64,000 nucleotides of DNA from Alicyclobacillus acidiphilus NBRC 100859 (lineage in GTDB: Bacteria; Bacillota; Bacilli; Alicyclobacillales; Alicyclobacillaceae), in contig NZ_BCQI01000003.1 in assembly GCF_001544355.1 (NCBI RefSeq), positions 1 to 64,000 on the forward strand. Direction: 5' to 3'. The notes under the pieces are model-generated. The model worked only from the letters and a program-made list of their open reading frames with translations, ran no database searches and was not told the origin of the DNA. Positions 1 to 58,411 of the stretch are shown here, one piece after another. Both the position numbers and the translations under genes were made by a program. The stretch's first letter is position 1, and the number at the start of each line of letters is the position of its first letter.

Positions 1-302
1 TGCCGACGACCGGCCGACTCGGGTGTCGTAAGGGACAAAAGTACCGCTATGGGGACGAAGTGGCGTCGTCGGTCGGCCGGCTCGGGTGTCGTAAGGGACA
101 AAAGTACCGCTATGGGAACGAAGTGGTGACGACGACCGGCCGACTCGGGTGCCGTAAGGGACAAAAGTACTGCTATGGGGACGGTGTGGCGTCGTCGATC
201 GGCCGGTTTGGGTGTTGTAAGGGACAAAAGTACCGCTATGGGGACGGTGTGGCGTCGTCGGTCGGCCGGCTCGGGTGCCGTAAGGGACAAAAGTACCGCT
301 AA
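1..302 (+). repeat. 63-bp tandem repeat array (at least five units)
   Basis: The conserved core CGTAAGGGACAAAAGTACCG starts at 27, 90, 153, 216 (first base changed) and 279, an exact 63-bp period. Between cores lies a GC-rich segment (CCGGC, GTCGTCGGTC) with a few substitutions per unit. The array probably continues beyond the left edge. Because 63 is a multiple of three it gives an open frame with a 21-residue repeat, but there is no ribosome site. The same core recurs with the same period on the other strand at 17835/17898 and once at 25731, so this is a dispersed family. Function unknown. Confidence 0.85.
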
Positions 303-3248: not shown

Positions 3249-3276
3249 GGATGGTGGATGGTGGATGGTGGATGGG
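3249..3276 (+). repeat. 7-bp minisatellite (GGATGGT, about four units)
   Basis: GGATGGT is repeated in tandem directly before the first hairpin of the 3278 element. The last unit is GGATGGG. It is one of several short G-rich tandem repeats in the window, each with its own unit, that abut a four-hairpin element. Confidence 0.8.
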
Positions 3277-3277
3277 C

Positions 3278-3471
3278 GAAATAAGGGGCCGAGGGCGGCT
3301 TAAATCTGTCGATCCGGCGGATTGGAAGCAAATAAGCAGCCGGGAACTGTTTATGGTGCTCCGTTCGCATCCGATTGGGCCGATTTTGAACGAATAAGCC
3401 GCCGAGGGCGGCTTATTTCGCTTGATTTAGAAAATTCGACATGAATAAGCGGCTATGGGCCGCTTATTCGG
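3278..3471 (+). repeat. four-hairpin intergenic element, copy E1
   Basis: Four inverted repeats start at about 3278, 3329, 3391 and 3443 (steps 51, 62, 52). The third (3391-3420, CGAATAAGCCGCC paired with GGCGGCTTATTTCG) and fourth (3443-3470) are near perfect. The first two are imperfect. The spacer after hairpin 1 has the shared string CTGTCGATCC and that before hairpin 4 has TTCGACA, the complement of TGTCGAA. The element is almost identical to E2, 277 bp downstream, and shares layout with six other copies in the window. The plus strand is defined by the TTAAATSTGTCGA reading. Confidence 0.85.
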
Positions 3472-3554
3472 TCCGCCTCGCCCTTCGCCTCGCCCCTTCG
3501 CTCGGCATCACCGTGTTCCGTGCGTTGCTTCGCTATGCTTAACGTGAACCGGGC

Positions 3555-3748
3555 GAAATAGGCGGCCGAGGGCGGCTTAAATCTGTCGATCCGGCGGATT
3601 GGAAGCAAATAAGCAGCCGGGAACCGCTTATGGTGCTCCGTTCGCATCCGATTGGGCCGATTTTGAACGAATAAGCCGCCGAGGGCGGCTTATTTCGCTT
3701 GATTTAGAAAATTCGACACGAATAAGCGTCTGAGGGCGGCTTATTCGG
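3555..3748 (+). repeat. four-hairpin intergenic element, copy E2
   Basis: A near-identical copy of E1 displaced by 277 bp, with hairpins starting at about 3555, 3606, 3668 and 3720. Differences are concentrated in the hairpin stems: hairpin 2 is better paired here (GGGAACCGCTTATGG against GGGAACTGTTTATGG in E1), and hairpin 4 has GCGTC in place of GCGGC. The 83 bp between E1 and E2 and the GGTCCGG/GGCCCGG-rich stretch after E2 (to about 3782) are GC-rich with no coding signal. From 3783 to the ribosome site at 3911 I see nothing further. Confidence 0.85.
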
Positions 3749-3924
3749 CGGTCCGGTCCAGCCCGGTCCGGCCCGGCCCGGGCGAGACCACTGCCACCCC
3801 GCTGCTCGCCCGCCCCGCGGCGCCCATCCTCCCATTGTCGTTTCTCGCAGGCTTCCGTATCATTGTGCCAGAGACTCACCGTAGATTCGGTCTGCGAGAG
3901 ATGTACATGTAGGAGGAAAAGTTG

Positions 3925-9300: not shown

Positions 9301-9340
9301 GGCGAAGGCGTGCGAAGGCGTGCGAAGGCGTGCGAAGGCG
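9301..9340 (+). repeat. 10-bp minisatellite (TGCGAAGGCG)
   Basis: Three exact 10-bp units (9311-9340) preceded by an imperfect one, ending 6 bp before hairpin 1 of element E3. The rest of 9193-9345 is GC-rich with no coding signal. Confidence 0.8.
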
Positions 9341-9345
9341 ATAAG

Positions 9346-9540
9346 GAAAATAAGCGTCCCTCAGACGCTTATTTCCGAGAAAGGGCCAGATGGAAAGTAA
9401 ATAAGCGTCTCGGAGACGCTTATTTGCCTCCGTTGCCTCCAAAACGGCGTGGACTCGGCCACTTAAGCGTCTGTGAGCCGCTTATTCGCGCCAAATCATA
9501 CGATTCGACACACTTAAGCGTCCCTCGACCGCTTATTCTC
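9346..9540 (-). repeat. four-hairpin intergenic element, copy E3
   Basis: Hairpins start at about 9346, 9398, 9460 and 9511. Hairpins 1 and 2 are almost perfect (GTAAATAAGCGTCTC against GAGACGCTTATTTGC). The last two have the TTAAGCG/CGCTTATT form. The spacer before hairpin 4 contains GATTCGACACA, the complement of TGTCGAA. It is in the opposite orientation to E1. Immediately after it, about 9541-9595, is a C-rich imperfect repeat of CCCGCCGCCTCC. Confidence 0.85.
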
Positions 9541-9693
9541 GCCCAGCCCTCCGCCTCCCAGCCCGCCGCCTCCCGGCCCGCCGCCTCCCCAGACCCCTCC
9601 GCACATATATAAAAGACATCGCCCGAAGTGAAGGCGATGCCTGTTAACAGATCATGTCTCATATTTCGTCGTATCTCTCGTCACGCGAAACCT

Positions 9694-9846: not shown

Positions 9847-10069
9847 ACCTATCACACACCCTCGATCTTTGTCACAAAATCGCGTGAGGGCACTACGGCA
9901 ACTGGCAAGCATATCAGATCGTGTCTGACTTAGCCCCGATAGTTTTGCGTCATCGCCTTTCGACGACTTTGCCTTTTTCGCAACTTTGTGTGACTCGTAG
10001 TAGATTATAGCGGACATACGACAGATTTCAATGTTTTTCTACCGACAGAAGTCGACGGAAAACGTCGTG

Positions 10070-17356: not shown

Positions 17357-17440
17357 GGAACGGAGGGGGAACGGAGGGGGAACGGAGGGGGAACGGAGGG
17401 GGAACGGAGGGGGAACGGAGGGGGAACGGAGGGGGAACGG
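17357..17440 (+). repeat. 11-bp minisatellite (AACGGAGGGGG, about eight units)
   Basis: The C of AACGG falls at 17361, 17372, 17383 and so on, an 11-bp period with nearly identical units. The stretch from 17138 to 17356 before it holds the AT-rich promoter region of the sugar transferase gene and no other gene. Confidence 0.9.
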
Positions 17441-17511
17441 CAGAAGGTTCTGAAAGTATTCGTGGTATGTGTGAACCGCGAAACGCGACCGTAGCAGAGA
17501 CGACCGGGGCG

Positions 17512-17556
17512 GGGGTGAGCGGGGTGAGCGGGGTGAGCGGGGTGAGCGGGGTGAGC
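17512..17556 (+). repeat. 9-bp minisatellite (GGGGTGAGC, five units)
   Basis: Five exact 9-bp units end 8 bp before the first hairpin of E4. Its unit is unrelated to the 11-bp array 70 bp upstream. Confidence 0.9.
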
Positions 17557-17563
17557 GGGGTGC

Positions 17564-17755
17564 GAATAAGCGGCTGAAGGACGCTTAAATGTGTCGAATC
17601 AGCGGATTTGCGCCAAATAGGCGGCCGTCAGGCGCTTAAGTGAAGGAACCTGCTTCGTGTTGGGGGTAGTGGAGGCAAATAAGCGTCCTGGCGACGCTTA
17701 TTTGCTTTCCATCCGGTCATTTCTCCGAAATAAGCGTCTGAGAGACGCTTATTTG
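17564..17755 (+). repeat. four-hairpin intergenic element, copy E4
   Basis: Hairpins start at about 17564, 17613, 17675 and 17727. The last two are near-perfect (GAAATAAGCGTCTGAGAGAC, continuing GCTTATTTG). The first spacer reads TTAAATGTGTCGAATCAGCG and includes TGTCGAA. It lies in the divergent intergenic region between the sugar transferase and the secreted protein genes, which argues against a simple terminator role. Confidence 0.85.
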
Positions 17756-17828
17756 ACCGTTCACCTTTGTTCTCCCTCCGCAGACTGCCGTCCACCTTCG
17801 CCGGCAGCAGTCCGCCCACGGCGTCGGG

Positions 17829-17925
17829 CGACCGTAACGGAACTTTTGTCCCTTACGTCGCACTCGTCTGCCGCATTCCGCCGCGATCGCGCCACTGTAA
17901 CGGATCTTATTCCCTTATGCCGCGC
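17829..17925 (-). repeat. 63-bp repeat family, two units, inverted
   Basis: TAACGGAACTTTTGTCCCTTACG at 17835 (read on plus in two parts: TAACGGAACTTT, TGTCCCTTACG) and a degenerate TAACGGATCTTATTCCC at 17898 are exactly 63 bp apart. They are the reverse complement of the core in the array at 1-302. From 17926 to 18212 is an AT-richer region that must hold the promoter of the secreted protein gene; no other gene is seen. Confidence 0.75.
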
Positions 17926-25669: not shown

Positions 25670-25765
25670 CGGCGGGCGAGTGCGACGGTGTGCGGGCGGG
25701 ATCGCGTCGTCGGGCGGCGGGCGAGTGCGACGTAAGGGACAAAAGTTCCGTTATGGCGACCTGAT
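25670..25765 (+). repeat. 63-bp repeat family, single unit
   Basis: The core CGTAAGGGACAAAAGTTCCG at 25731 matches the array at 1-302. It is preceded by GGCGGGCGAGTGCGACG, which is itself duplicated 45 bp upstream. It sits 60 bp from element E5, just as the 17835 copies sit 80 bp from E4. The stretch 25479-25669 is AT-rich and must carry the promoter of the kinase operon. Confidence 0.65.
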
Positions 25766-25811
25766 CTCGCCGGAGGGTGGCAGGCCCGCGCAGCCGGTGA
25801 AGGTGTGCGTT

Positions 25812-26005
25812 CAAATAAGCGTCGCTCAGACGCTTATTTCGATGACATGGCTGGGTGGAAGGCAAATAGGCGGCTCCAGGCCGCTTATTTGCCTCTATGG
25901 CCCTCGGAATGGCGCGGTTTGCACCACTTAAGCCTCTGTGGGACGCTTATTCGGGGGCAAATCGGACGATTCGACACATTTAAGCGTCTGTGAGACGCTT
26001 ATTCG
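25812..26005 (-). repeat. four-hairpin intergenic element, copy E5
   Basis: Hairpins start at about 25812, 25862, 25925 and 25977 (steps 50, 63, 52). Stem pairs such as CAAATAAGCGTCGCTCAGAC with GCTTATTTCG are near perfect. The spacer before hairpin 4 contains GATTCGACACA (complement of TGTCGAA). Same orientation as E3 and E8. Confidence 0.85.
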
Positions 26006-26010
26006 CCCCG

Positions 26011-26088
26011 GGTCTGCCGGGGTCTGCCGGGGTCTGCCGGGGTCTGCCGGGGTCTGCCGGGGTCTGCCGGGGTCTGCCGGGGTCTGCC
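26011..26088 (+). repeat. 10-bp minisatellite (GGTCTGCCGG, seven exact units plus part)
   Basis: Seven exact units run 26011-26080, then GGTCTGCC. The array starts 6 bp after the last hairpin of E5 and ends 19 bp before the stop codon of the ThuA-like gene. The absence of any mismatch suggests recent expansion. Confidence 0.95.
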
Positions 26089-52265: not shown

Positions 52266-52423
52266 GCCCCCTGCACGGGGACTTACTGGCTGCTCCTCGC
52301 CGACAGTTCGCCGACAGTTCGTCGCGATCGCACCGGAGTGAGCGACTCCGGGCCTGGGAATGAGCCGGAGAGAGCCGAGTGGCTCCGGCCGATTCCGGCG
52401 GCAACCTCCGGCAACCTCCGGCC

Positions 52424-52616
52424 GAAATAAGCCTCCCAGAGCCGCTTAAGTGTGTCGAATTCTCCGAGCTGCAAGGAATAAGCGGCCTTGAGCCGCTTAA
52501 ATGGAGCAACCGACGCCCGCCCCGACGGATTCGACCGAAATAAGCGTCCCAGGGCCGCTTAAGTTTATCGATCTCGCCGCTTTCCGAAGAATAGGCGGCT
52601 GTGGGCCGCTTATTCG
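52424..52616 (+). repeat. four-hairpin intergenic element, copy E6
   Basis: Hairpins start at about 52424, 52475, 52536 and 52588. The spacer after hairpin 1 reads GTGTGTCGAATTCTCC and includes TGTCGAA. It is preceded by two GCAACCTCCG units (52401-52420). A 240-bp block from 52401 is repeated 280 bp downstream with only a few mismatches. 52266-52400 holds low-complexity GC-rich sequence with short direct repeats (GACAGTTCG). Confidence 0.85.
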
Positions 52617-52703
52617 GCGTGACCCCACTCCGCCCCTCGCCACATCGGCCCCTCGCACCACCACCGCCCCGGCCGACTCCGCAACCTCCGGCAACCTCCG
52701 GCC

Positions 52704-52896
52704 GAAATAAGCGTCCCAGAGCCGCTTAAGTGTGTCGAATTCTCCGAGCTGCAAGGAATAAGCGGCCTTGAGCCGCTTAAATGGAGCAACCGGCGCCCGC
52801 CCCGACGGATTCGACCGAAATAAGCGTCCCAGGGCCGCTTGAGTTTATCGATCTCGCCGCTTTCCGAAGAATAGGCGGCTGCGGGCCGCTTATTCG
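52704..52896 (+). repeat. four-hairpin intergenic element, copy E7
   Basis: A near-identical copy of E6 with the same GCAACCTCCG pair in front (52681-52700) and the same CGCCCCTCGCC tail, followed by ACCGCC repeats (about 52940-52957). Differences include GCCTC to GCGTC in hairpin 1 and single transitions elsewhere. 52960-53134 has AT-rich promoter-like sequence for the ABC operon. Confidence 0.85.
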
Positions 52897-53134
52897 GCGT
52901 GACCCCGCTTCGCCCCTCGCCTCATCCGGCCCCTCGCACCGCCACCGCCACCGCCACACCCCTCGCCTATTCATAATCTTCGCGCTTCACGGTATTGCTC
53001 GACTGTTTTTGCGGGACAGCAAAATGAGTCAATAGATGACCAAATCGTGTATATCCAGTCGGTTAGGATTGTGGTTAAATGACTTTCGTGTCACTTGTTA
53101 CAGGGTGTGGGAAAATGGGAGAGGAGAGAACTTC

Positions 53135-57963: not shown

Positions 57964-58081
57964 GGGGTAGCGGGGTAGCGGGGTAGCGGGGTAGCGGGGT
58001 AGCGGGTAGCGGGTAGCGGGTAGCGGGTAGCGGGTAGCGGGTAGCGGGTAGCGGGTAGCGGGTAGCGGGTAGCGGGGTAGC
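57964..58081 (+). repeat. compound minisatellite (8-bp then 7-bp units)
   Basis: Five GGGGTAGC units (57964-58003) are followed by ten GGGTAGC units (58004-58073) and a final GGGGTAGC. The array abuts hairpin 1 of E8. The change of one G across the whole run indicates slippage expansion from a single event. Confidence 0.95.
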
Positions 58082-58276
58082 GCAAATAGGCGTCTCTCAG
58101 CCGCTTATTTCAGCGAAGTGACAGGATAGAAGGCAAATAAGCGGCCCTCAGCGCCTTATTTGCCTCCGGCGCCTCCAGAATGGGGCGATGTCCGCCACTT
58201 AAGCGTCTGTGAGCGGCTTATTCGTGGCAAATCACACGATTCGACACACTTAAGCGTCTCTGGGCCGCTTATTTGC
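58082..58276 (-). repeat. four-hairpin intergenic element, copy E8
   Basis: Hairpins start at about 58082, 58133, 58196 and 58247 (steps 51, 63, 51). The spacer before hairpin 4 contains GATTCGACACA. It is followed by C-rich repeats: CCCCCGAC twice and GTCCCTC three times (58277-58328). Same orientation as E3 and E5. Confidence 0.85.
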
Positions 58277-58411
58277 CCCCGACCCCCGACCCCCGCCCGC
58301 CCCCCGTCCCTCGTCCCTCGTCCCTCGGCCTCCCGCTTGCCCCCGCCCCGATCGCGGCATCGCGGTCATCGAGCCCTCTCGCTGTATGCACCCAAATTCA
58401 TCGATGCAGTC

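Follow-up and report, generated by a model that had tools for sequence, protein, structure and literature searches.

The left edge of the window, the 64,000-nucleotide stretch of DNA analyzed here (C3:1-64000), carries a short sequence repeated at 63-bp intervals, which raises the question of what this repeat is and whether it belongs with the four-hairpin elements of the same stretch. The window is part of the genome G000 (3.86 Mb, 165 contigs). A sequence-only reading had counted a core five times at a strict 63-bp period at the left edge, twice on the other strand at 17835/17898 and once at 25731, and had proposed, based on shared length and location, that the cores and the four-hairpin elements are parts of one larger unit.

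Core dyads and their arrays

The core site is a 23-bp imperfect dyad, RTAASGGACAAAAGTWCCSYTAY. Allowing up to three mismatches, CGTAAGGGACAAAAGTACCG was matched seven times in the window (+ strand at 27, 90, 153, 216, 279 and 25731; − strand at 17838-17857), while 100 shuffles gave no match. TRF described positions 7-301 as 4.7 copies of a period of 63 with 0% indels, so that the five left-edge copies are confirmed by both approaches; the single copy at 25731 is confirmed by the pattern search. The opposite-strand pair is also real, its second member being a degenerate core, GTAACGGATCTTATTCCCTTAT, which is one base shorter, keeps the 63-bp step and was not picked up by the three-mismatch search.

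Across G000, 64 core copies were found at up to two mismatches (reversed-pattern control: 0), distributed over approximately 20 arrays of 1-12 copies, the longest being the 12 copies at C8:60 kb. The 63-bp period is nearly exact, as it accounts for 43 of the 48 steps (the others being 64 twice, 52 twice and 70 once), but it is not strict throughout, since C113 mixes two values (63/52/63/63/52/63/63). Between arrays, cores are 87% identical and the 40-bp spacers 43% (35% when shuffled). Inside one array the spacers are 78% identical and not unrelated, and a CRISPR array was therefore rejected. Spacers frequently start with GGCGGCGYGATCGCG, and a left-end motif, GCAGATTGAT, precedes only about five cores. 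Some copies have fully complementary arms (ATAGCGG...CCGCTAT, GTAACGG...CCGTTAC, GCAAGGG...CCCTTGC), and most combine unlike halves, e.g., TAAGGG with TAGCGG. The core was not detected in 40 relatives at up to one mismatch, and its occurrence in other species was dismissed, as the single match among genome contigs is probably due to chance.

Table 1. Core dyads, four-dyad elements and private tandem repeats of the window, followed by loci on other contigs and in G056.
Feature	Position	Strand
Core array, five 23-bp dyads, period 63 (28-50, 91-113, 154-176, 217-239, 280-302)	28..302	+
Four-dyad element, tandem copy 1, steps 51/62/51	3269..3475	-
Four-dyad element, tandem copy 2	3546..3752	-
Private tandem repeat GCGAAGGCGT abutting element	9302..9340	
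Coreless four-dyad element, flanked on each side by private tandem repeats	9342..9548	+
Private tandem repeats GGAACGGAGGG and GGGGTGAGC beside element	17357..17562	
Four-dyad element paired with 17834 core	17554..17760	-
Core dyad, upstream of four-dyad element at 17.55 kb	17834..17856	-
Degenerate core, one 63-bp step from the 17834 core	about 17897..17918	-
Core dyad, upstream of four-dyad element at 25.8 kb	25732..25754	+
Four-dyad element paired with 25732 core	25807..26014	+
Private tandem repeat GGGTCTGCCG abutting element	26010..26088	
First of two tandem four-dyad elements (280-bp unit)	52415..52621	-
Four-dyad element, tandem copy 2	52695..52901	-
Private tandem repeat GGGTAGC abutting element	57965..58082	
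Four-dyad element	58078..58284	+
Core loci with adjoining element	C3:17.8, C3:25.7, C3:87, C30, C55, C10, C20, C17, two in C33	
Core loci without element (six)	C3:1-302, C29/C72, C8:60 kb (12 copies), C5, C116, C9	
Six-dyad loci of G056	C1: L249, L259, L260, L261, L269, L275, L277	

Four-dyad elements and their association with the cores

A covariance model built from nine of the four-hairpin elements, here called four-dyad elements, detected more than 100 of them in G000. In a step scan of 88 elements, with 46-56/56-68/46-56 allowed, 57 had steps of exactly 51/62/51 and the rest were within one base. The elements are 204-207 bp long with a mean inter-locus identity of 66%, and the nearest copy at another locus has a median identity of 78%. 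Entire elements also often occur as tandem duplicates with periods of approximately 280-380 bp (52401-52949 and 3269-3752 in the window; C70, C12, C21, C16 and others). A plasmid or phage origin was rejected, as searches did not find the four-dyad element in plasmids or the core array in phages; two viral matches had 57- and 53-bp steps. Besides, a c-di-GMP-I riboswitch was detected at 9894-9983 of the window (− strand, 77.8 bits).

The cores at 17.8 and 25.7 kb do lie close to four-dyad elements, in both cases with the element downstream and the dyad starts 83-107 bp apart. Genome-wide, an element is present within about 150 bp downstream at 10 of the approximately 16 decidable core loci, always with its H1 side facing the core and in one orientation, while five core loci end at contig ends. 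In agreement with this polarity, 16 of 68 H1-side flanks contain a core-like site, vs 0 of 65 H4-side flanks. With ten loci having an element and six lacking it, the proposed larger unit is supported as a polar composite of a single core and a four-dyad element at most single-core loci. It does not extend to the long core arrays, which are mostly free-standing, the one at 1-302 included, nor to the approximately 90% of four-dyad elements without an intact core. The sequence-only reading had regarded a location of most copies far from the elements as evidence against a common unit; this is the case by copy (about 18 near, 32 far and 22 at contig ends), yet not by locus. It had also suggested a search for a further element to the left of the window. 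C72 probably continues the 1-302 array, because its spacers are 87% identical to those of that array (contig joins being inferred from spacer similarity), and within its first 4 kb there are three cores but no four-dyad element.

Helical phasing and relatives in other genera

Both families share a 21-bp frame of two six-base half-sites nine bases apart (TAAGCG-N9-CGCTTA in the hairpins, TAASGG-N9-CCSYTA in the cores). The best Fourier period was 10.3 bp for the four-dyad types of three genomes and 10.5 for the core. In the four-dyad elements and the six-dyad elements of G056, the centre step is about 11 bp (one turn) longer than the outer ones, and the 63/52 alternation in C113 resembles the 62/51 alternation of the four-dyad elements. 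Judging from this spacing, the step of 62/63 bp common to both families is not a coincidence, because both consist of 21-bp dyads set about 5 or 6 helical turns apart.

Two dyads at a 51-bp step were matched 208 times in G000, 109 in G015, 20 in G055, 11 in G056 and 6 in G019, with no matches of the reversed controls save in one genome, and a broader two-dyad pattern gave 115 matches in G056. The letters of the dyads vary among genera and the steps stay constant, with peaks at 51 and 61/62 in both G015 and G056. G012 and G006 fit 51/62/51, and further arrays were found in G054 (an array of eight at 52 bp), G019 (62/52 and 63/51), G020 (53/42) and G043 (a core-like CAAGGGACAAATGTTCCCTTA at a 51-bp step). 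The high-copy families of G015 and G056 differ, and most congeners have few or none. The presence of only one or two arrays in some relatives indicates that not every member of the family requires the system. The same spacing in different letters across genera points to a DNA-binding protein rather than to RNA hairpins, while copies within one genome share descent, so that their spacing could partly be inherited.

A second family (family B) in G056 consists of six-dyad arrays, TAGTGATC-N5-GATCACTA, with steps of 41/42/53/42/41 and 125 pairs genome-wide. Of the 33 strongest family-B loci, six have a four-dyad element no more than 1.5 kb away (0.6 at random), and one locus runs from a G-rich stretch through six and then four dyads to a C-rich stretch, the same layout as at 25.7 kb of the window. 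Taking dnaA (position 367) as the origin reference, family-B loci cluster near oriC (KS p = 0.0005), 18 of the 33 being no farther from it than 10% of the genome in either direction (vs 6.6 expected, at a cutoff set post hoc), while family A alone gave no significant result (KS p = 0.13). This enrichment, seen in one genome and in family B only, suggests a possible role in chromosome organization.

Composition of the flanks

The element flanks are a strong natural hot spot of minisatellite birth. A short tandem repeat, nearly always with its own unit, was found within 120 bp of 70 of 82 elements, compared to 4.4% of random intervals. Tandem repeats cover 27.5% of the flanks and 3.0% of non-ORF sequence in G000 (18.2% and 3.0% in G056; 3.9% and 1.6% in G015). 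The GC content at the edges is 72-74%, with a skew (+0.42 left, −0.34 right) that decays over about 150 bp, hence on either flank it is the strand read 5' to 3' into the element that is rich in G. The skew is weaker in G056 and absent in G015. Replication forks that stall or break at a putative protein patch, followed by repair synthesis, are one possible cause. An array of Chi sites was considered for the G-rich flanks and rejected as too weak (AGCGG 98 times vs 78 expected by composition). The octamer GCGATCGC, known in cyanobacteria as HIP1, repeatedly follows cores and is present in 22 of the 68 left flanks.

Proposed interpretation and alternatives

Based on these patterns, we propose that 63-bp repeats and four-hairpin elements alike are phased dyad arrays that probably bind dimers of a putative protein. 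Both kinds of array are made of 21-23 bp dyads with half-sites of about six to nine bases, neighboring dyads standing about 4, 5 or 6 whole helical turns apart. Each dyad would bind a dimer of a sequence-specific DNA-binding protein and, because of the whole-turn spacing, successive dimers would lie on the same face of the DNA and form a regular nucleoprotein patch. The 51/62/51 and 41/42/53/42/41 elements are mirror-symmetric, their centre step being longer than the others by about one turn, and the patch would share this symmetry. The 63-bp arrays would have arisen where the upstream core module expanded in tandem, in flanks that are very prone to such duplication. While the dyads, their spacing and symmetry, the spacing kept across genera, the scarcity of half-site covariation and the makeup of the flanks can be read directly from the sequences, we infer protein binding, oligomerization and a function as landmarks along the whole chromosome (for anchoring, segregation or as domain boundaries) in preference to purely selfish copies. 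A further idea, tentative and rather doubtful, is that of a new chromosome-organizing system of this bacterial family, with symmetric phased arrays at dozens to more than a hundred intergenic sites, enriched near oriC in one complete genome. Its oligomeric patches would serve as scattered landmarks comparable to centromeres or anchors, and joint evolution of site and protein would leave the geometry alone conserved between genera.

Selfish, MITE-like elements are a possible, if somewhat improbable, alternative: the dyads would be sites of a putative transposase or recombinase, and the symmetric halves the two ends of an element spread by transposition. The more than 100 dispersed copies in G000 with common inter-dyad sequence, the lineage-specific high-copy families of G015 and G056, their scarcity in most congeners, and mirror-symmetric halves that look like joined transposon ends all agree with this. 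However, the transposase search, which addressed Y1_Tnp (PF01797), gave no match in G000, while the same search was positive in G001, G015, G055 and five control genomes. (The G015 matches, in C220, C150 and C98, contain in-frame stops and look like pseudogenes.) No constant boundary or target duplication is visible either, although private tandem repeats at the flanks mask the boundaries and the congeners compared for empty sites are too diverged from G000 to show them. The median nearest identity of 78% argues against a recent burst, and recent mobility therefore appears unlikely, a judgement that covers recent spread only. It is unlikely, too, that the 63-bp period is the mere unit length of a minisatellite that arose once and was then copied. 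The abundance of private tandem repeats in the flanks would favor this, as would the spacers common to some arrays (identity of 0.87 for C3/C72, 0.82 for C29/C72 and 0.66 for C3:87/C18), but the periods of the other tandem repeats close to elements range freely from 5 to 23 while core arrays almost always have 63. Moreover, cores are conserved between arrays whose spacers are near shuffled identity, and the step that C113 adds, 52, is another helical value.

Single-stranded hairpins, whether REP-like, transcription terminators or structured RNA, would explain that the dyads can be folded into hairpins of 7-11 bp, and covariation in G000 is slightly above expectation at a single inner position in each of H1 and H2, as well as at a few others. 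Family B of G056 is near neutral, with marginally positive values at two positions. Against this, most of the variable positions of G015 and G056 show no covariation or a negative one: position 4 of G015 pairs in 8% of dyads vs 49% expected, and most half-site positions in G056 are neutral or negative. Cores also conserve unlike halves, and step constancy to 1 bp would not be expected of independent hairpins. Known RNAs were rejected, as Rfam gave no match near the elements, and so were intrinsic terminators, as there is no preference for gene 3' ends: convergent, divergent and co-directional gene pairs flank the elements equally often (-- 20, -+ 19, ++ 18, +- 18, by simple ORF calling). We thus consider single-stranded hairpins very unlikely. 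Half-sites that vary largely without compensation, the absence of Y1_Tnp and the even gene orientation fit half-sites that would be read independently in double-stranded DNA by a putative protein dimer.

Comparison with known systems

Dispersed palindromes in bacteria are commonly read as hairpins mobilized by RAYTs. Here, relatives share geometry and not sequence, G000 has no Y1 transposase and the half-sites barely covary; no description of such repeats was found in the open-access literature. Like REP, BIME and REPIN sequences, the arrays are short, dispersed, intergenic palindromes of high copy number, often in small clusters and with lineage-specific sequence. They differ in the fixed helical steps among four or six dyads and in the GTAG/CGTC tag, which is part of the REP definition (PMC3733652) and is not present at the palindrome end in the consensus, sites starting with ATAA/GTAA (core) or AAATAAGCG and GTAG occurring only in a minority core variant. 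Compared to REP/RAYT systems, they also appear to show little or negative pairing covariation, slightly positive at few positions in G000, and have no Y1 transposase in G000. Identity with REP/RAYT was rejected on the last point, although REPs that had lost their RAYT would also fit that absence.

The centromere sopC (parS-F) of plasmid F consists of 12 tandem 43-bp repeats with 16-bp inverted repeats bound by ParB-F (PMC6238139). The core arrays resemble it in their fixed-length tandem repeats with one inverted repeat each, and the copy number of the C8:60 kb array is likewise 12, but their period is 63 and not 43 bp, their sequence is another and they occupy many chromosomal loci instead of one; a parAB-type operon linked to each of the approximately 20 array loci per genome is implausible. 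MITEs are likewise small, non-coding, dispersed and symmetric, but no defined terminal inverted repeats or target duplications were seen here at boundaries masked by private tandem repeats, nor a partner transposase in the search for Y1_Tnp. A further, tentative comparison is with the palindromes bound by Noc and RacA in Bacillus subtilis, dispersed chromosomal anchor sites known as single sites. The dyads share with them the many short palindromes per chromosome and, in family B of G056, the enrichment near the origin, and differ in forming phased symmetric arrays. If a protein occupies these phased dyads, they would offer a testable handle on chromosome organization or on a new class of mobile repeats.
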